Made by a program: the position numbers and the translations under genes
IMG/VR virus record: IMGVR_UViG_3300025917_000032
Span: 1 to 45,623 of that record
Strand: one strand, 5' to 3'
Origin: a virus
Length of the DNA stretch: 45,623 nucleotides
Shown: positions 27,457-44,006 of the stretch, piece by piece
How positions within the stretch are numbered: the stretch's first letter is position 1
Layout of the letters: each line of letters begins with the position of its first letter
Notes under the pieces: generated by a model
Told to the model about the DNA's origin: nothing
Database searches by the model: none
What the model saw: only the letters and a program-made list of their open reading frames with translations

Positions 27457-29970
27457 TTACCGCGCCTGCAACGTCACCCACGGTGCGAGGGTGTTGGTGC
27501 CGTTCTTGGGCGTGAGCGTCGAGTTCCAGAGCGGCTGCCCGCCGACCCGGTGCTCGAACCGGAAGGCCTGCTCCGCCGTCAGGAACTTGACGTGGATCGA
27601 CTGCGCCATCTGGACGCCGCCCTTCTCGACGACGAGGTACTCTTCCATCGCCGCGTAGACGATGTCGCCCACGGTGCCCACGGTCGCCGAGTACTCGATC
27701 GGGATCACCGGGTTGCCGAAGAGCGTCGCGTAGGGAGCGCCCGAGAGTCCGCCCGGAGGCGTGTAGATCGGGATCGTGGTGTTGGGGATGAACATCTGCA
27801 GCAGTTGCGGCTCGACGTCCTGGTTGATGAACCAGACGGCGTTCTTCCGGAGCGGCGCCCACATGCGCGAGCGCATCTTGATGACGTTGGCCGCGACGAC
27901 GGTGCCGGCCGACTGCCCGGATTCCTTGGACACCTGCACGACCGCGGGGCCGTTCAGGATGCCTAACAGCGTCCCGGCGCCGCCGCCGTTCAGGATATTG
28001 TCCTCGAGCACGAACGTCATTTCGTCCTGGAACGCCATGAGGGCGTACGTCTCGAGCGCCGCGGCGTCGGACAGGAGCTCATCGGTCGCGAAGAACACGG
28101 CGAGGAGCTTTTCCGGCTTGACTTCGATCCGGCGGAACTTCGGGTTGGAGCCCGTCGTGGCGTCGGCTTCGTTCGCCCAGAATACCTGGACACCGCCCCA
28201 CCGCTGGCCGTTCGCGCGGCTCGTTTCGTTGACGGCGGGGATGACGAGCGAGCCTGCGGGGCCGCTCATCGGAATCCGACGGACGCGCTTCAGGACCTCG
28301 CCCGCCTGATACGTGCGGAAGATCAACTGCTGCGAGAACTCGGGGTAGACGAGGAATCCGCCATCGGCCTGAACCCCTTCGCTCGCGCCGGCGGGACCGG
28401 CCAGCGGCAGAAGCCGCGGGTCCATCGCGCCACCGGGCACCGTCGCGCGGCGCACGGCCATGAGGAAGTCGCCGCCGCCATGGAACGGCGCCTTGGTTTC
28501 GCGCTGCTCGCCGACCGTGATGACGGGCTTGGCCGTCGCGCGGTAGCCGTCCAACAGCTCCGCCTTGACGGTGTCGAGCGACTTGCCCGCGGCGACCCAA
28601 TCGGTCACGTCTTTCACGGACTTGCCGTGCGCGTTGGCGAGCGCCAAGAACGCATCGACGTTGCTTTGTAGTGCGGCCCCGGCGGGGGCCGCCGTGTCGT
28701 TAGGCACGGGAATCTCCTTGGCCTTAGGGGCCGGTTCACTCGGGGAAGGGGGAATCGACCCGATCACGGCCCCGTCCGTGGTCGCGCGAGACTGCTCGTC
28801 GTCCGGCGGCGTGTCGTCCTGGTCGGTATCGGCCGGCGCCGGTTTCTTTTTCTTCTTCTTGCCGTTAGGCGGCGCGTCGTCCTCGTCCTTGTCGCCGTCG
28901 TTAGGCGGAGGATCGGCTGCGAGGACGGTTAGGCCGGGAGTGCCGCGCACATCGGCGACGGTGATCGAGCCGTTGTAGATGTGGCCGAGATCCATGACCG
29001 AAGCTGCGGCCGGCGCGATCACGTAGGTCTGCGCGGCGATGAGGCTGGGCAGTGCCGGACGCCCATCATCGCCGATCGCAGCGGGCGTCTCGAGCGCGGC
29101 GACCTTCCGCCGCGCCGATCGGCTACCGCCGGTGAGCTGCGCGAGCACATCGTCGAGCGTGTCGATACGATCCGCCATCCCAACGGCAATGGCGTCCTTG
29201 GCGGTGAGCACGCGACCTTGGCCGTAGTCGCTTCGCACAGTGGCAACGCTTACGTCGCGGCCTTTCGCGACCGCGCGGAGGAAATCGCTGTAAATCGCTT
29301 CGATCCGGCCTTGGATGTATTCGGCGGCTTCATCGCCGAGCGGCCCGTACGGGTTGCCCTCGACTTTGTACTTGCCGGCCGAGATGATCGTGGCCTTGAC
29401 GCCTTCCTGTTCGAGCGCGCCCGACTCATCGAAGTGCACAGTATAGACACCGATCGACCCGGCCTGCGCGCTCGGACTCATCGCGATTTCCGAGCACTGC
29501 GACGCGAGCCAGTAGCCGGCGCTCGCGGCCAGGTAATTGACAGCGGCGATGATCGGCTTTTTTTCGCGGCCCGCGAGAATCTTGGATGCCAGTTCCGGCA
29601 CGCCATCTACCGCGCCGCCCGGCGTGTCGAAGTCGAGCACAATCGCGCCAATCGCCGGATCGTCGAGCGCCGCGTCCAACTGCGCGCCTAACAATTGCGC
29701 GGATGTGCCGCCCGACATCTCGGTCATCATGTTCATGCGCGGCGCGATGACGCCGTAGACGGGGAGCACGGCGACCACGCCCTTGGTCTTCATCGTCGGC
29801 TGGCGGTTCGCGGCCGCGGCGGTGCGGACATCTTCCTCGGCCACGCGACCGCCCGACGCCCGAAGCGCGAGCAGGTCCATGATCGCACGGCCTTTCGCCG
29901 GGTCGATCGCCCACGGTGTCGCGGACACGGCGCGCAAGATTGCGTCGTATTTCACGGCCTTGACGTTCAT
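27457..29970 (-). CDS. S49 protease-scaffold-HK97 major capsid fusion
   Basis: A single 837-residue open frame. Residues about 60-280 are an S49 (SppA-type) protease: Ser150 in A-A-S-A-G-Y and Lys202, 52 residues later, the same spacing as the Ser/Lys pair of B. subtilis SppA. Residues 355-425 are an acidic/Lys/Pro-rich linker; 430-500 is a helical scaffold-like part. From about 535 the HK97-fold capsid begins (G-G-F-L-V-Y-P, then E-K-L-L-A-V-F-F-A-T-D-E-L). The protease usually cuts scaffold out of a separate capsid protein; here it would have to cut itself free. Confidence 0.8.
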   Translation of the reverse strand: MNVKAVKYDAILRAVSATPWAIDPAKGRAIMDLLALRASGGRVAEEDVRTAAAANRQPTMKTKGVVAVLPVYGVIAPRMNMMTEMSGGTSAQLLGAQLDAALDDPAIGAIVLDFDTPGGAVDGVPELASKILAGREKKPIIAAVNYLAASAGYWLASQCSEIAMSPSAQAGSIGVYTVHFDESGALEQEGVKATIISAGKYKVEGNPYGPLGDEAAEYIQGRIEAIYSDFLRAVAKGRDVSVATVRSDYGQGRVLTAKDAIAVGMADRIDTLDDVLAQLTGGSRSARRKVAALETPAAIGDDGRPALPSLIAAQTYVIAPAAASVMDLGHIYNGSITVADVRGTPGLTVLAADPPPNDGDKDEDDAPPNGKKKKKKPAPADTDQDDTPPDDEQSRATTDGAVIGSIPPSPSEPAPKAKEIPVPNDTAAPAGAALQSNVDAFLALANAHGKSVKDVTDWVAAGKSLDTVKAELLDGYRATAKPVITVGEQRETKAPFHGGGDFLMAVRRATVPGGAMDPRLLPLAGPAGASEGVQADGGFLVYPEFSQQLIFRTYQAGEVLKRVRRIPMSGPAGSLVIPAVNETSRANGQRWGGVQVFWANEADATTGSNPKFRRIEVKPEKLLAVFFATDELLSDAAALETYALMAFQDEMTFVLEDNILNGGGAGTLLGILNGPAVVQVSKESGQSAGTVVAANVIKMRSRMWAPLRKNAVWFINQDVEPQLLQMFIPNTTIPIYTPPGGLSGAPYATLFGNPVIPIEYSATVGTVGDIVYAAMEEYLVVEKGGVQMAQSIHVKFLTAEQAFRFEHRVGGQPLWNSTLTPKNGTNTLAPWVTLQAR

Positions 29971-31529
29971 CGCATGCCTCCGGTTAGGCGGTGCATGACG
30001 AGCGCCTTGGGCTTGCCGTTCTTTTTGGGCGGCTCCTCGTCGGACTCATCCTCGCTGCCGTCCTCGGGCGGCTTGCCTTCGTCCGCTTCCGATTCGGCGG
30101 TCGTGTCGACATTGACGGCGCGCGAGGACTGGCCTTCGGCGATGATGAGGGGCACGCCGTACTGTTCGGCCAGCTCGATTTCGGCCTTGCGCTCTTTCAT
30201 GATCTGCTCGAAGTCGACGCCCGTCTCCTTGCAGATGCGCGTGATGCTCGAGGCGCCCATGCCGACGAGATGTTCTTTCTCGCTGATGTCTTTCACGGGA
30301 TCGATCCACGGGAAGGCGCGCGGATGCCACGTCACATTCCAGTATTTCCGCTCGTCTAACGACGAGAGCGAGAGCGCGCCCGAGAGGAGCGACATGCGGA
30401 GCGCCCGCCGATAGATCGGCGTCAGCACCTTCCGCACAATGCGCTGCTGCATGGCCTGATAGACGGCGCGCTCGGCGAGCATGCCGACGCGGCCCGACGA
30501 GAACGACGTGTTATTGAGATCGCCCGAGAGCGAGATGTAGGAGACGCGGAGCGCGCTCGCGATCGACCGGAGGATCGCCTTATCGAAATGGTCGAAGGCG
30601 CTCGTCGGGTGCTTGGGATCCCAATCCTTGAACGTCTCGCCGGGGCCTAACCGCTCGATCGTGCCGGGGTTGGCTTCCCATTTGACGTTGCGCGCGCCCT
30701 CGCGCGGCTTGGCGGGGGGCGCCACATCCTGCGAGGTTTCGACGAATCCCATCTTGGCCGCCGACGCGCGCGACGCGACCAACTCGGATTCGCGATAGCC
30801 GCCTAACATCTTGAGGTCGACCACCACCGGCGCCATCCACGTCACGCCGCGCGACTGCATGGGGCGGCGTTGGATGAAGAGGTGGATGATGTCCTTGGCC
30901 GGGACGGGGAGGCGCTCTTTCCCCTGCGGGTCGGTCGGGTGCGCGGTCCAGAGGTGATAAAAGAGCGGGCGTCCCCATGCGTCCTGCTCGACACCCATCT
31001 TGATCGCGTTCTGGCCGGGGCCGGGCGTGACGTTGTAGTAAATGTCTAACTGATCCGCGTCGAACACCTGCACGGCGAACCCGAACGGATTGTCGAATCC
31101 GTCGACCATGCGGATCAGCACTTCGCCGTCCGTCGCCTCCGTCTCCACGGTCATGCGCTGGAAGTCGACCATCGTCGCGCGGCCGTCCACCGTGGGCGCT
31201 TCGCTGAAATCCTGCCACCATTGATCGAGGACGGGGTTGTCTGTCTTGTGCGGCGTGCCGCGCGAGGACTCGGCCTGCGGCTGCATCAGAATGCCGTCTT
31301 TGCCGACCACGTTCTCGCTGAAAATGGCCGGCACGGCTGCGGCGCTCGAATTGTTGATGACGAGCTCGCGGGCGCGATTCCGGAGCGTCTGCAAGTCGAA
31401 GCGGATGGTCATGTCGGCCGAGAGCCGCTGCATGACCCAGTCGTAATTCAGCCGATCGAAGGCGGCGCCCCGATAGAGCGACGCCTGCGGCTGCATCTCG
31501 CGGACAAGAGCGGCGAACGGGTTAGGCAT
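29967..31529 (-). CDS. portal protein (lambda B-like)
   Basis: A 520-residue protein. It has the portal family opening (residues 1-60 with R-G-A-A-F-D-R), the central S-I-A-S-A-L-R-V-S-Y-I-S-L-S-G-D segment near 330, and the long C-terminal acidic/Lys tail. It lies directly upstream of the protease-capsid gene (ATGA). It forms the dodecameric ring through which DNA enters the head. A lambda-type portal goes with the GpA terminase. Confidence 0.85.
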   Translation of the reverse strand: MPNPFAALVREMQPQASLYRGAAFDRLNYDWVMQRLSADMTIRFDLQTLRNRARELVINNSSAAAVPAIFSENVVGKDGILMQPQAESSRGTPHKTDNPVLDQWWQDFSEAPTVDGRATMVDFQRMTVETEATDGEVLIRMVDGFDNPFGFAVQVFDADQLDIYYNVTPGPGQNAIKMGVEQDAWGRPLFYHLWTAHPTDPQGKERLPVPAKDIIHLFIQRRPMQSRGVTWMAPVVVDLKMLGGYRESELVASRASAAKMGFVETSQDVAPPAKPREGARNVKWEANPGTIERLGPGETFKDWDPKHPTSAFDHFDKAILRSIASALRVSYISLSGDLNNTSFSSGRVGMLAERAVYQAMQQRIVRKVLTPIYRRALRMSLLSGALSLSSLDERKYWNVTWHPRAFPWIDPVKDISEKEHLVGMGASSITRICKETGVDFEQIMKERKAEIELAEQYGVPLIIAEGQSSRAVNVDTTAESEADEGKPPEDGSEDESDEEPPKKNGKPKALVMHRLTGGMR

Positions 31530-32635: not shown

Positions 32636-32643
32636 GAGTTAGG

Positions 32644-32717
32644 TCAGGGGGACAGGACTCGAACCTGTTCTCAGGGGTTCACAGCCCCTAGTGCCGATCC
32701 ACTTACACCACCCCCTG
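32644..32717 (-). tRNA. tRNA-His (GTG)
   Basis: 74 nt, 5' end at 32717. All arms fold: acceptor CAGGGGG/CCCCCTG, D arm GTGT/GCAC with GG in the loop, anticodon stem AGGGG/CCCCT with loop CTGTGAA (anticodon GTG, 32-33 C-T and 37 A), T arm ACAGG-TTCGAGT-CCTGT. The discriminator base is A, not the C usual for bacterial tRNA-His, and CCA is not encoded (CCT). It starts 6 nt after the preceding gene's stop. Confidence 0.85.
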
Positions 32718-32992: not shown

Positions 32993-34894
32993 TTACCGCC
33001 GCCAGTCCATCCAGCCACCCGACTCCGGTTCCGGTTCGCTGGCCGGCGACGCCTTTGCCTTCTCGGCGAGGGACTTTCCGAACTCGCACAGCTCCTCGGC
33101 CAGCTCGCCTAACGCCTGCACTGTGCCCAAACCGTGCCAGTGGAGTGCGGCGAGCGCGTAGGCGAACAAGTCGAGGAACTCATTACGCCCTTTCTTGACC
33201 CACTCGCGCTTCGGCCGGCCGCCGACGTAGCGCGTTTTGAGGGTTTCGTTCGTCAATTGGCGAATCTGTTCGGTATCGAGCCAATCCGGAATATGGACAT
33301 ATCCCGGGCCGGGCTCTTTGACCGACACGAGCCGCGACAGGATCGACTCTTTTGCGGTGAACGATCCGACGCCGTAGAGGATTGCTCGCTGCGCGTTGTG
33401 GCGCGTCGGCTTCGCAAGGAGCGGGGAGCCCTCCGGCGAGAGGCCTTTGATGGCAAAGACGCGATCCGCGACGTGCGAGCGCGTGAACTCGTAGACCTCC
33501 TTTGAGTGGTGGCCGCCGGAATCGACGAACGTTACCGACGGCACCATCGGCGCGCCGCCCTCGTGTCGGTATGGTTTCTTCAGGATCGCCGCCAGTTTGC
33601 GCCACGGCTCGATCGTGCCCGGATCGCCGACCAGCATTTCATAGTCGATCGGCCACGCCTCCTGTCCATCGCCAAATCCCCACACGGCCGTCTCGAGCCG
33701 GTCGCCTTGTGTGTCGACCGTCCGCACGAGAAGCGCAACCCCCTTTGGAACGAGCACCTCGCCCGTTTCCTTGTCGACAGGATACTTCTCGACGCGACCG
33801 ATCAACGCGTGGGGGTCTGCGTCCTGGCCCTCCTCCTCCCACGTTTCGGCCCATACCGTGTTGACGAACACGCGGAGTCGGACCGGATCGGCCTTGACCT
33901 CGAGGTATTCGGCCACGAGCCGCGCCCAGCGCGCGCCCTCGAACGGTGAGACGAGCGCGTTGATCCAGAATCCAGCGGTGCCGCGGATCTCCGGCTTGTC
34001 CGCTAGCCAATCGCCGCGTCCGACAGCGGGCATCTTGTCGACTTCCTCGATGAGCTGGTGGCACTGCTCGCAGAGGTAGGCGGCGGTCTCCGGTTGGTTC
34101 GGCTTCCATTTGAGCCCGTAGTCGCACTCCGTGCCGCCCCAGCGGAGAATCTGACCGTGATCGCAGTGCGGACAGGGGACCAGGTAGCGCCGCTGGTCGC
34201 TGTCCATGTACGCCTTCTCAATCCGGCTGCGGCCGCGCAGCGTAGGCGTCGACAGGAGAAATACCTTGCGATTCCAGAACGTCGTCGCTCGCTTGGTCGC
34301 GAGTCCAATTGGGTCGCCCTCGGTTCCGGCCGATTCGGGGTAACCGTCGATCTCGTCCATCAGCACGACGCGGCGCGCGCGCGCGCGCAGTCCTGACGGT
34401 GCGTTCGCGCCGACAATACCCAAATGGCCGCCGGGGAACGCCTTTGCTAGGATGGTGTTATCCGAATCCCTCGAGCGCGGATCGCGGACCTTACCGCGGA
34501 GCCGCGGCGTATCGCGGAGCATCGGCGCGAGCTTTTCCTTGCTCCACTTCTGCGCTTCCTGATCGGTGATCTGTACGACCATGATCGGGCAGGGATCTTG
34601 GTCGATGAAGTAGGCGAGCACGTTGTTGAGCGCTTCGGTGCCGCCCACCTGCGCGGGCTTCATGAACACGATGCGCTCGATGAGGTGGTCGTTCACGGCG
34701 TCCATGATGCCGCGCAGATACGGGGCGCGATCGGTCGACCACTTGCCCGGTTCCGCACTATTCTCCCGCGAGAGCATCCGATAGCGGTCTGCCCATTCGC
34801 TCACCGTCAGCTTTGGCGGCGGCGAGAGAATCGAGCGGAAGAGCGCGGCGCGGCGCGAGCGCCATGCGGTCATTGCGGCCGGCGCGGTCTCCAC
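32993..34894 (-). CDS. terminase large subunit, GpA-like
   Basis: A 633-residue protein. The ATPase has a Walker A-like loop (K-P-A-Q-V-G-G-T-E, about 79-87) and Walker B (V-V-L-M-D-E-I-D, 176-183). Two Cys-x2-Cys pairs (C-P-H-C and C-E-Q-C, about 235-275) make a zinc insert typical of the lambda GpA family. The C-terminal nuclease has acidic positions near V-D-T-Q-G-D and V-D-S-G-G-H and the final N-E-F-L-D-L-F. It packages DNA through the portal with the small subunit. GpA proteins usually cut at cos. Confidence 0.92.
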   Translation of the reverse strand: METAPAAMTAWRSRRAALFRSILSPPPKLTVSEWADRYRMLSRENSAEPGKWSTDRAPYLRGIMDAVNDHLIERIVFMKPAQVGGTEALNNVLAYFIDQDPCPIMVVQITDQEAQKWSKEKLAPMLRDTPRLRGKVRDPRSRDSDNTILAKAFPGGHLGIVGANAPSGLRARARRVVLMDEIDGYPESAGTEGDPIGLATKRATTFWNRKVFLLSTPTLRGRSRIEKAYMDSDQRRYLVPCPHCDHGQILRWGGTECDYGLKWKPNQPETAAYLCEQCHQLIEEVDKMPAVGRGDWLADKPEIRGTAGFWINALVSPFEGARWARLVAEYLEVKADPVRLRVFVNTVWAETWEEEGQDADPHALIGRVEKYPVDKETGEVLVPKGVALLVRTVDTQGDRLETAVWGFGDGQEAWPIDYEMLVGDPGTIEPWRKLAAILKKPYRHEGGAPMVPSVTFVDSGGHHSKEVYEFTRSHVADRVFAIKGLSPEGSPLLAKPTRHNAQRAILYGVGSFTAKESILSRLVSVKEPGPGYVHIPDWLDTEQIRQLTNETLKTRYVGGRPKREWVKKGRNEFLDLFAYALAALHWHGLGTVQALGELAEELCEFGKSLAEKAKASPASEPEPESGGWMDWRR

Positions 34895-42232: not shown

Positions 42233-42885
42233 GCCGCGCCCCCGAAGTCGAGCACGCCCTGGGAAAGACGTAGCGCCGCCGACTCGCAATGCGCCTCGTC
42301 AATCTCAATACCGATAGCCGGGCGCCGCCGCTCCATGGCGGCGATGAGCGTCGAGCCGGAACCAGCGTAAGGATCAATCACGCGCCCACCGGGCACGAAG
42401 CCGAGGCACCAGTCCATGAGCGCGACCGGCTTCTGGTTCACGTGCCAGCGCCCCTCCGACTGCTCGCGGCCACCGCGCGTCGCCCCCGACCAGCGGCGCG
42501 TCCACTTCCGTACGGTCGCCACGACGTTCGTCCACACCAGTTCGGCGTCGCTCTGGTCCATCTCCGGCCCGTCGTCTCGCTTGTCCCAGACGAGCCAGCC
42601 ACGCGAGGACGGCAACCGATCTGCGAAATGGTTCCCGCCCCAGAGCACGAGCCGGGGCGCGGCCGAAAGCAGATGTGTAGGGTCGAACGGCAAATCGTCA
42701 CCAACTATTGTCTTGCCGTCCATCCCGAGAGAGATTCCGCCAGCCCGCGCGCCGTGGCGGTAGGAGATCCCGTAAGGCGGGTCCGTCACTATCGCGTCCG
42801 ACGGCGCCGATACTATGCGAGGCAGCACCTCCATGCAGTCGCCGTGGTAGATCGTGATCCCGTCCGCCTCGTAGTAGGGCCTCAT
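42229..42885 (-). CDS. DNA methyltransferase, beta-class
   Basis: A 218-residue protein. D-P-P-Y at 35-38 (motif IV) and D-P-Y-A-G-S-G-S at 171-178 (motif I) in the IV-then-I order of beta-class N4-cytosine or N6-adenine enzymes. I-G-I-E (191-194) is the SAM-binding acidic strand. The short target-recognition part suggests a minimal enzyme. No restriction partner gene is nearby, so it is probably an orphan used to protect or regulate phage DNA. Coupled by ATGA to integrase. Confidence 0.85.
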   Translation of the reverse strand: MRPYYEADGITIYHGDCMEVLPRIVSAPSDAIVTDPPYGISYRHGARAGGISLGMDGKTIVGDDLPFDPTHLLSAAPRLVLWGGNHFADRLPSSRGWLVWDKRDDGPEMDQSDAELVWTNVVATVRKWTRRWSGATRGGREQSEGRWHVNQKPVALMDWCLGFVPGGRVIDPYAGSGSTLIAAMERRRPAIGIEIDEAHCESAALRLSQGVLDFGGAA

Positions 42886-44006
42886 TCGCCCACCTTCCCG
42901 TCCAGCTTCCCGAACGCTTCCGCCACCCGGTCCTCCCGACGCTGGACATAGCGCGTCAATTGGCGGGCGTCCGTGTCGCCGATCGCGTGGAGTCCCAGCA
43001 TCGCGTCGCCCGTGATCGCCGCCACATCGCCCGACAACATCCGCCGTAGTCCGTGCCCCGCTCGGTTCCGCGCGTGCGCGATCCCCGCCCGCCGCTCGGC
43101 CGCCCGCAGGGCCGACCACACGGCGCCGATCGTGTAGACCTCATGTCGGCTCACGTTGTGGCCTTTGGTCCGCGCCGCCGGGAAGACCCACGGCGAGTCG
43201 GTCCGGTGCGCCTCCGCGACCTCGAGCGCGGCGATCGTCCGCTCGCGCAACGGCTGCCACCAGTCCTTGCCCATCTTGTCCCACTCGGGCTGCCAGTGGA
43301 CGCGGCGCGCTTCCAAGTCGATGTCCGCCCACTGGAGGTGGAGCACAGCCTGCTGCCTGACGCCCTGATAGCCGCAGATCGAAAGCACACACCACGCGCG
43401 CCAGTGCGCCTTGTACGTGGTCGGGTCCAGCGCCTTGAGGAGGGCCGCGAAATCGTCGGCGCGGTACTCCGCCGGCGGAACGGGGCGCTTCTCCTTGGCC
43501 ACGCGGTAGCGGTAGGCGTGGAGCCGGTTGCGGGCCAGGTGCTCGTGCGCCAAGCCCCACTGGTGCACGCTCTTGATCGTGGTGATCGCGCGGCCGATCG
43601 TCGTCACGGCCAAGCCCCTGGCCTCGAGCGCCGCGCGCAGCTTGACCAGCATGCCGAGCGTCGCGTCCTCGGCGGTAAAGGCCGTCCCCCACATGACGGT
43701 CCAGTAGCGCCAGTGTTCCTCATACAGGCGCTGCGTCCGTTGCCGGAGGTGCGAGTATTCCGACTCGGCGAACCGCTCGTAGAGCTCGCGCAGTGTCATG
43801 CGCTCGGCCACCGGCAGCGTCCGCGACTCGCTGAATCCGCGCGCCCACTCTTTCGCTTCGATGATGTTCTCGCGCGAGCGGACCCACGACTTCGTCTTGA
43901 GCGCGCCCCGCTCCCGCCACTGGACGCGCACCAGATCTCCCTCGGTGAACACGCGGACCTGCGCGCCTTTGGGGCCGTAGTGGGCGAGAGATTTGCGGAG
44001 GGTCAC
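42882..44006 (-). CDS. int: tyrosine-family site-specific integrase
   Basis: A 374-residue protein from GTG 44004-44006. It has an N-terminal arm-binding domain (about 1-65), a core-binding domain (70-165) and a catalytic domain (180-374). The catalytic set is Arg217, Lys244 or 247, His318-x2-Arg321 and Tyr353. At the usual His/Trp position before the Tyr there is Gly343-Asp344 in place of Gly-His, a change to note. It would catalyse attP x attB recombination next to the attP site at about 42000. No excisionase was identified. Confidence 0.85.
   Translation of the reverse strand: MTLRKSLAHYGPKGAQVRVFTEGDLVRVQWRERGALKTKSWVRSRENIIEAKEWARGFSESRTLPVAERMTLRELYERFAESEYSHLRQRTQRLYEEHWRYWTVMWGTAFTAEDATLGMLVKLRAALEARGLAVTTIGRAITTIKSVHQWGLAHEHLARNRLHAYRYRVAKEKRPVPPAEYRADDFAALLKALDPTTYKAHWRAWCVLSICGYQGVRQQAVLHLQWADIDLEARRVHWQPEWDKMGKDWWQPLRERTIAALEVAEAHRTDSPWVFPAARTKGHNVSRHEVYTIGAVWSALRAAERRAGIAHARNRAGHGLRRMLSGDVAAITGDAMLGLHAIGDTDARQLTRYVQRREDRVAEAFGKLDGKVGE

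Follow-up and report, generated by a model that had tools for sequence, protein, structure and literature searches.

The 837-residue protein encoded on the minus strand of the window (the whole 45,623-nt stretch of viral DNA analysed) joins an S49 head maturation protease, a scaffold-like segment, and a predicted HK97-fold capsid, and its gene is most likely a nested two-product head gene, a reading to which we assign a probability of roughly 0.8. As judged from the sequence, a minor 837-aa form and a major 416-aa form would be made from the same frame, with their ratio set by two ribosome-binding sites. Two observations make a nested arrangement, like that of lambda C/Nu3, the most likely one: a start codon recurs at the junction of other S49 fusions, and a GAG codon upstream of the boundary start is fixed in fusions of the ClpP class.

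As the initial annotation held, the frame at 27457-29970 (-) is uninterrupted and 837 aa long. Its start, ATG 29970, overlaps the stop of the portal gene (ATGA) and has its own Shine-Dalgarno sequence (Table 1). The earlier division of the protein into an S49 protease, an acidic linker, a scaffold-like helical segment, and an HK97-fold capsid is also borne out, and protease, scaffold, and capsid stand in a single uninterrupted frame, a fusion of the Gifsy-2 kind. GC3 stays between 0.77 and 0.98 in every 60-codon block of the ORF, linker included, so the linker looks coded and translated in the fusion frame. Within the head module, a tRNA-His gene (anticodon gtg; 32642-32717, -) lies between the portal and terminase genes, and an integrase-like gene at 42882-44006 (-) indicates that the phage is probably temperate.

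Table 1. Features of the fusion gene and its neighbours, in window coordinates
Feature	Position	Strand	Basis
Terminase large subunit, gpA type	32993..34894	-	Pfam, PHROG matches
Portal protein gene, lambda-type, directly upstream of fusion ORF	29967..31529	-	Domain matches
GGAGG Shine-Dalgarno of long product	29977..29981	-	Duplex -9.5, best of 54 in-frame starts
Protease-scaffold-capsid ORF, long product, 837 aa	27457..29970	-	ORF and domain matches
S49 (SppA-type) protease domain, residues 66-279	29134..29775	-	Domain matches, SppA alignment
Putative catalytic Ser150 codon	29521..29523	-	SppA alignment, invariance
Putative catalytic Lys202 codon	29365..29367	-	SppA alignment, invariance
Acidic/lysine-rich linker, residues 285-421	28708..29118	-	Composition, alignment, GC3
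AAGGAG, internal Shine-Dalgarno	28714..28719	-	Start scoring, junction alignment
Internal in-frame start GTG, codon 422	28705..28707	-	Start scoring, junction alignment
Nested frame, predicted 416-aa scaffold-capsid product	27457..28707	-	Prediction
Scaffold-like helices, residues 432-479	28534..28677	-	Model of short product
Scaffold/capsid border, residues 483-496, around R490, P495, F496; possible maturation-cleavage region	28483..28524	-	Prediction
HK97-fold capsid domain, residues 537-814	27529..28362	-	Pfam, Foldseek

Peptidase_S49 (Pfam) matches residues 135-279 of the protein (E 5.4e-35; 121.1 bits against a cut-off of 24.9), and PHROG_53, head maturation protease, matches residues 7-451 (E 7.1e-87), thus extending beyond the protease to include the beginning of the scaffold-like segment. 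Ser150 is aligned with the Ser of the AAS-G-G-Y motif in both E. coli SppA and 3rst SppA, while Lys202 pairs, in a weak match of 13.5 bits, with the GTYKSA Lys of the E. coli SppA N-terminal domain; we take these SppA residues to be the catalytic ones. The Ser150/Lys202 pair proposed at the outset is supported by this alignment, weakly for the Lys, and by the invariance of both residues across five aligned fusions. By sequence, the window protein thus has an S49 head maturation protease of the lambda C type with a putative Ser-Lys dyad.

The linker that follows, ahead of the internal start, is poorly conserved among the aligned fusions. For the scaffold-like part, a model of the 416-aa product (mean pLDDT 57), used only for fold and for rough placement of the scaffold helices, has three helices at residues 432-479, with block pLDDT about 60-73 over most of them; a full-length AlphaFold model, with a mean pLDDT of 36, was set aside. 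The corresponding segment of another S49 fusion, L134, matches the middle of NF045541, an NCBIfam family of prohead protease/capsid fusions (E 1.5e-6; 27.1 bits against a cut-off of 525), and the window protein itself gave no match to NF045540 or NF045541 at E <= 0.01. At the scaffold/capsid border, R490, P495, and F496 are invariant in five fusions and are not retained in a further one, L387. The near-copies L196 and L154 (98%) differ here by a deletion of about ten residues, possibly the sign of a stretch that is tolerant or cleaved. The capsid domain matches Phage_capsid (PF05065; E 1.7e-36, 126.5 bits against a cut-off of 24.2) and TIGR01554 (162.3 bits against 27.5), and an HK97 fold is supported by the short-product model, for which Foldseek gave 25 PDB matches at E <= 0.001, headed by capsid proteins. 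Sequence searches of the PDB with three other fusions left two without a match and gave nothing on capsid N-termini; for the third, Pseudomonas phage BR200a, the best 60 of 109 matches were all ClpP.

To score starts, we computed the pairing of the 16S tail with the 16 bases ending 4 nt upstream of every in-frame start codon. Within the range of about residues 326-520 that the initial annotation proposed to search, codon 422 is a candidate internal start: a GTG lying 6 nt downstream of AAGGAG, at the passage from linker to scaffold, with what scores as a good ribosome-binding site before it. At -8.5, GTG422 is the best of 52 internal in-frame starts, and the true ATG (-9.5) alone scores better. 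The locus therefore has a candidate in-frame internal start with a Shine-Dalgarno sequence at the protease/scaffold border, as would a nested gene of the C/Nu3 kind. In nine other large ORFs of the window, 4 of 354 internal in-frame starts match GTG422 in strength; taking the first start of each of these ORFs, which need not be the true one, the scores are no better than +0.3 to -8.0. When codons are shuffled synonymously, 70 of 400 trials again have a site of equal strength at codon 422, and the same-site counts for ten other fusions, 40 to 343 of 400, are not decisive. Shuffles and within-genome background leave GTG422 non-significant alone, so that the case rests on its position and on conservation across fusions.

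Nine distinct S49 fusions were compared: those of the window, L387, L134, L312, L344, L304, L154, L359, and L457. All nine have a GTG or ATG at the boundary, with CAGGAG, AAGGAG, or AGGGAG just upstream. Among the 30-58 internal starts of each ORF, the junction start ranks first in the window, L344, L154, L312, L359, and L457 and third in L387, L134, and L304, in each of which two other internal starts outscore it; the ranks for the window, L134, L154, L359, and L457 are not blind, since there the junction start was chosen by eye from the top-ranked starts, while homology fixed the place of the junction for L344, L304, L312, and L387. In the seven junctions that could be aligned, GGAG and the TG of the start are invariant, and the start column across S49 junctions is either Val (GTG) or Met (ATG), both of them start codons. 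Codon choice is a weak test in this class because the ORFs are GC-rich: 3 of 11 conserved Glu columns are all GAG, and GAG accounts for 69% of Glu codons overall. L359 (2692-5982) and L457 (2168-4960) join S49 to other PF05065 capsids, with the strongest internal start at the junction in each. A related layout was seen in L363, L380, L341, and L374, which encode S49 proteases with a C-terminal tail and have strong in-frame internal starts before the tail, like Nu3; a capsid of the window family is absent from the DNA examined at these four loci.

The ClpP class offers the sharper test. In Gifsy-2, where ClpP and a Phage_capsid_4 capsid share one ORF (NF045540 match, E 1e-285), the best internal start is ATG221, directly after the ClpP domain. 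The class set comprised the best 80 of 518 relatives in viral contigs together with L302 and L303; L303 gave no match, which left 68 distinct fusion proteins, and these, with the omission of RcKai (L302), whose junction ATG scores only -5.6, were clustered at 90% identity into 17 representatives. At the boundary all 17 have ATG, and the Glu codon of GAGGA, five positions upstream, is GAG in 17 of 17 (25 of 25 at a 97% identity cut). By comparison, GAG reaches at most 0.59 in the 14 other conserved Glu columns (0.64 at the 97% cut) and 0.43 overall (0.44). Pairwise identity in this set is 60-90% (median 67%), long enough a divergence for the Glu codon to have changed, although these lineages are not independent of one another. 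A Shine-Dalgarno/ATG pair within the Gifsy-2 ClpP domain, taken as a control, is not conserved, with ATG in 8 of 17 and GAG in 7 of 17. This conservation at the synonymous level is our strongest evidence for use of the internal start, and strongly suggests it.

A threshold of -6 at the junction was set beforehand for BR200a and for actinophages of clusters AU1, EE, and AN. Two of the four passed it (BR200a, -6.9; ScienceWizSam of AU1, -10.2), while in Anseraureola (EE) and Sourignavong (AN) the ATG at the junction, which directly follows the S78 domain, narrowly misses it at -5.8. The window-family capsid is itself fused to an S78-type prohead protease in L019, L029/L030, and L059/L116 (the Pfam match is weak for L059 and L019), each with an internal Shine-Dalgarno sequence and ATG at the N-terminal part of the capsid. 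The junction ATG scores -10.0 in L029 and -8.9 in L059; L019, where a better junction candidate (-7.0) lies five codons upstream of Met 269 (-3.7, rank 12 of 34), was left out of the counts. Applied to lambda C as a control, the scoring places the best internal start at codon 309 (-9.7), which would give a 131-residue product, presumably about the size of Nu3. The annotation of J02459 (L221) puts nu3 at codon 239 of C, and the scoring makes codon 309 the likely Nu3 start instead.

Separate genes are the usual arrangement among the relatives examined, as first supposed. A first scan with the whole protein, which retained 80 viral loci carrying the capsid family of the window, gave no S49 fusion; both genes are visible at 23 of these loci, and there they are always separate. 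Across 146 distinct S49 loci, 87 have separate genes and 9 are fused, a proportion that is not a natural frequency, since each scan keeps at most the best 80 loci and two scans used fusion profiles. In six of the 146 (L134, L154, L304, L344, L387, and L388) the protease is in one frame with the window capsid family, and 53 show no capsid of that family in the DNA examined, among them L312, a fusion cut by the contig end, L359, and L457. The description of the fusion as unusual holds insofar as it is a minority layout; it is less unusual than was implied, since Gifsy-2, MD8-like phages, and several actinophage clusters are also fused. With the protease half alone, a scan of viral contigs gave no confirmed relative and a scan of genome contigs gave one, with the genes separate. 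By tblastn against cultured phages, a single place covering 80% of the protein was found in none of 1057 records for the window and none of 929 for L154; among plasmids, 1 of 1054 had such a place, and that record has separate genes. On the capsid side, 109 of 155 distinct loci of the window family have no S49 in the DNA examined (at 89 of the 109, the DNA extends at least 2 kb upstream of the capsid core), so this capsid probably travels with several protease types. The contig of L082, which carries phage S49 and capsid genes, was assigned to an archaeal genome bin (Candidatus Nitrosotalea), probably by mistake.

In the nested reading, initiation at ATG 29970 would give the minor 837-aa protease-scaffold-capsid protein, and initiation at GTG 28707, behind AAGGAG, would give the 416-aa scaffold-capsid protein that makes up the bulk of the shell, as does HK97 gp5 with its delta domain. 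The long form would co-assemble through the scaffold and capsid parts common to both, thus bringing a limited number of S49 proteases inside the procapsid. These proteases would cut away scaffold and linker, perhaps near residues 483-496, freeing the capsid core. The two ribosome-binding sites would then determine the protease:capsid ratio, in the manner of lambda C/Nu3.

Had the gene worked purely as a polyprotein, all capsid would come from an 837-aa protein that cuts itself, and the internal GTG would go unused. In its favour, proteases that process themselves occur in other phages, the window protein has the S49 dyad residues, which do not vary across five fusions, and the R490/P495/F496 border, invariant in those five too, could be a cleavage region. 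That border is not kept in L387, however, and a polyprotein leaves unexplained both the boundary start with its Shine-Dalgarno sequence in nine of nine S49 fusions and the GAG in 17 of 17 ClpP-class representatives, which makes this account unlikely. The same three objections weigh on a strict one-to-one protein, in which each shell subunit keeps its own protease until cleavage; a single open frame with a strong first start speaks for it, but it would also crowd hundreds of roughly 290-residue proteases into each procapsid, and we give it the least credence of the accounts weighed here. The initial annotation had taken the fusion to fix protease and capsid at equal copy number, a premise that probably does not hold, given the internal start at codon 422 and the good ribosome-binding site in front of it. 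It had also offered self-cleavage or an internal start as the source of free capsid, and of these the internal start is favoured over self-cleavage alone.

A sequencing or assembly error might instead hide a stop between two ordinary adjacent genes, as the initial annotation itself allowed. The window is a single virus record, and L081, L171, and L099 do have both genes in the same frame with one stop between. Against such an artefact, five other distinct contig families share the layout and capsid family of the window, with a sixth (L312) cut by the contig end, and some fusions occur as near-identical pairs from different metagenome records (L387/L388; L154/L196, 98%); this recurrence renders a hidden stop or frameshift improbable, and GC3 is continuous across the ORF. 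Moreover, the separate-gene capsids examined start with another, charged N-terminus (assessed by eye), mostly behind their own Shine-Dalgarno sequence, whereas in the window a protease-type scaffold segment takes its place. We consider an error very improbable, and the nested two-product gene remains the preferred reading.

Together with the match of the L134 scaffold to NF045541, the differing N-terminus of separate-gene capsids makes the fusion look like a protease-scaffold of the C/Nu3 type joined to a capsid core. A single origin of the S49 fusions was not supported: the capsid-part tree (73 rows, 5 fused) and the S49-part tree (74 rows, 5 fused), built without L387/L388, the cut L312, and L359 and L457 with their other capsids, each need at least two label changes. 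Clustering of the fusion label is seen in the S49 tree, where 3 of 500 shuffles gave a count as low, but is not clear in the capsid tree (49 of 500). The fusions may have arisen by several joinings or by domain swaps.

The protease-scaffold-capsid architecture is already known from Gifsy-2, MD8 gp5, actinophages, and NF045540/NF045541. Gifsy-2 reportedly has a tripartite capsid gene of protease, scaffold, and capsid. Gifsy-2 and NF045540 resemble the window in holding three parts in one frame and in having, as our comparison showed, an internal ATG preceded by GAGGA where protease and scaffold meet, but Gifsy-2 differs in its ClpP (S14) protease and Phage_capsid_4 capsid, where the window has S49 and PF05065. 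Pseudomonas phage MD8 gp5 likewise combines protease, scaffold, and capsid in a single gene, as its description proposed from homology; unlike the S49 of the window, its protease was modelled on ClpP, and the main text makes no mention of an internal start codon or Shine-Dalgarno sequence (PMC8508860). Protease-capsid genes are also described for Arthrobacter clusters AM and AU and phage Maggie (PMC5513430, which makes no mention of an internal start), Arthrobacter cluster AN (PMC11953736), and Microbacterium cluster EE (PMC9671004). These actinophage fusions are like the window in being one gene and, in the three inspected, in having an ATG with a purine-rich upstream stretch after the protease domain, but their protease is of the S78 type. 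No such internal start is reported among the matches listed in our literature search, which leaves most subscription papers uncovered, and the Gifsy-2 paper (Effantin et al. 2010, Virology 402:355) may discuss it. Fusions are thus known elsewhere, yet with no cultured-phage record covering 80% of the protein and no internal start reported in the matches listed, an S49-HK97 capsid fusion with a nested start looks new.

With protease and capsid fused, one has to ask how a phage keeps from making a protease for every shell subunit. It seems somewhat more probable than the reverse that phage protease-scaffold-capsid fusions are generally two-product genes, in which an internal ribosome-binding site conserved across S49, ClpP, and probably S78 proteases, and across different capsid families, would yield protease-free scaffold-capsid and let the protease be incorporated in the shell at a proportion governed by the two starts. 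On this basis the curated family NF045540, for which viral contigs yielded 518 relatives, is predicted to have a second product, and how general the nested start is deserves following up. Lambda C shares the S49 protease of the window, and its C-terminal scaffold, Nu3, is also made alone from an in-frame internal start; unlike in the window, the capsid protein E is a separate gene (J02459 annotation). In HK97, by contrast, the protease is encoded by a separate gene and belongs to another family than S49. HK97 gp5 nevertheless resembles the predicted 416-aa product, since it carries an N-terminal scaffold part, the delta domain, on an HK97-fold capsid, as stated in the MD8 paper (PMC8508860). 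A conserved internal start would be a simple, testable answer that links these two strategies, lambda's C/Nu3 and the delta domain of HK97.
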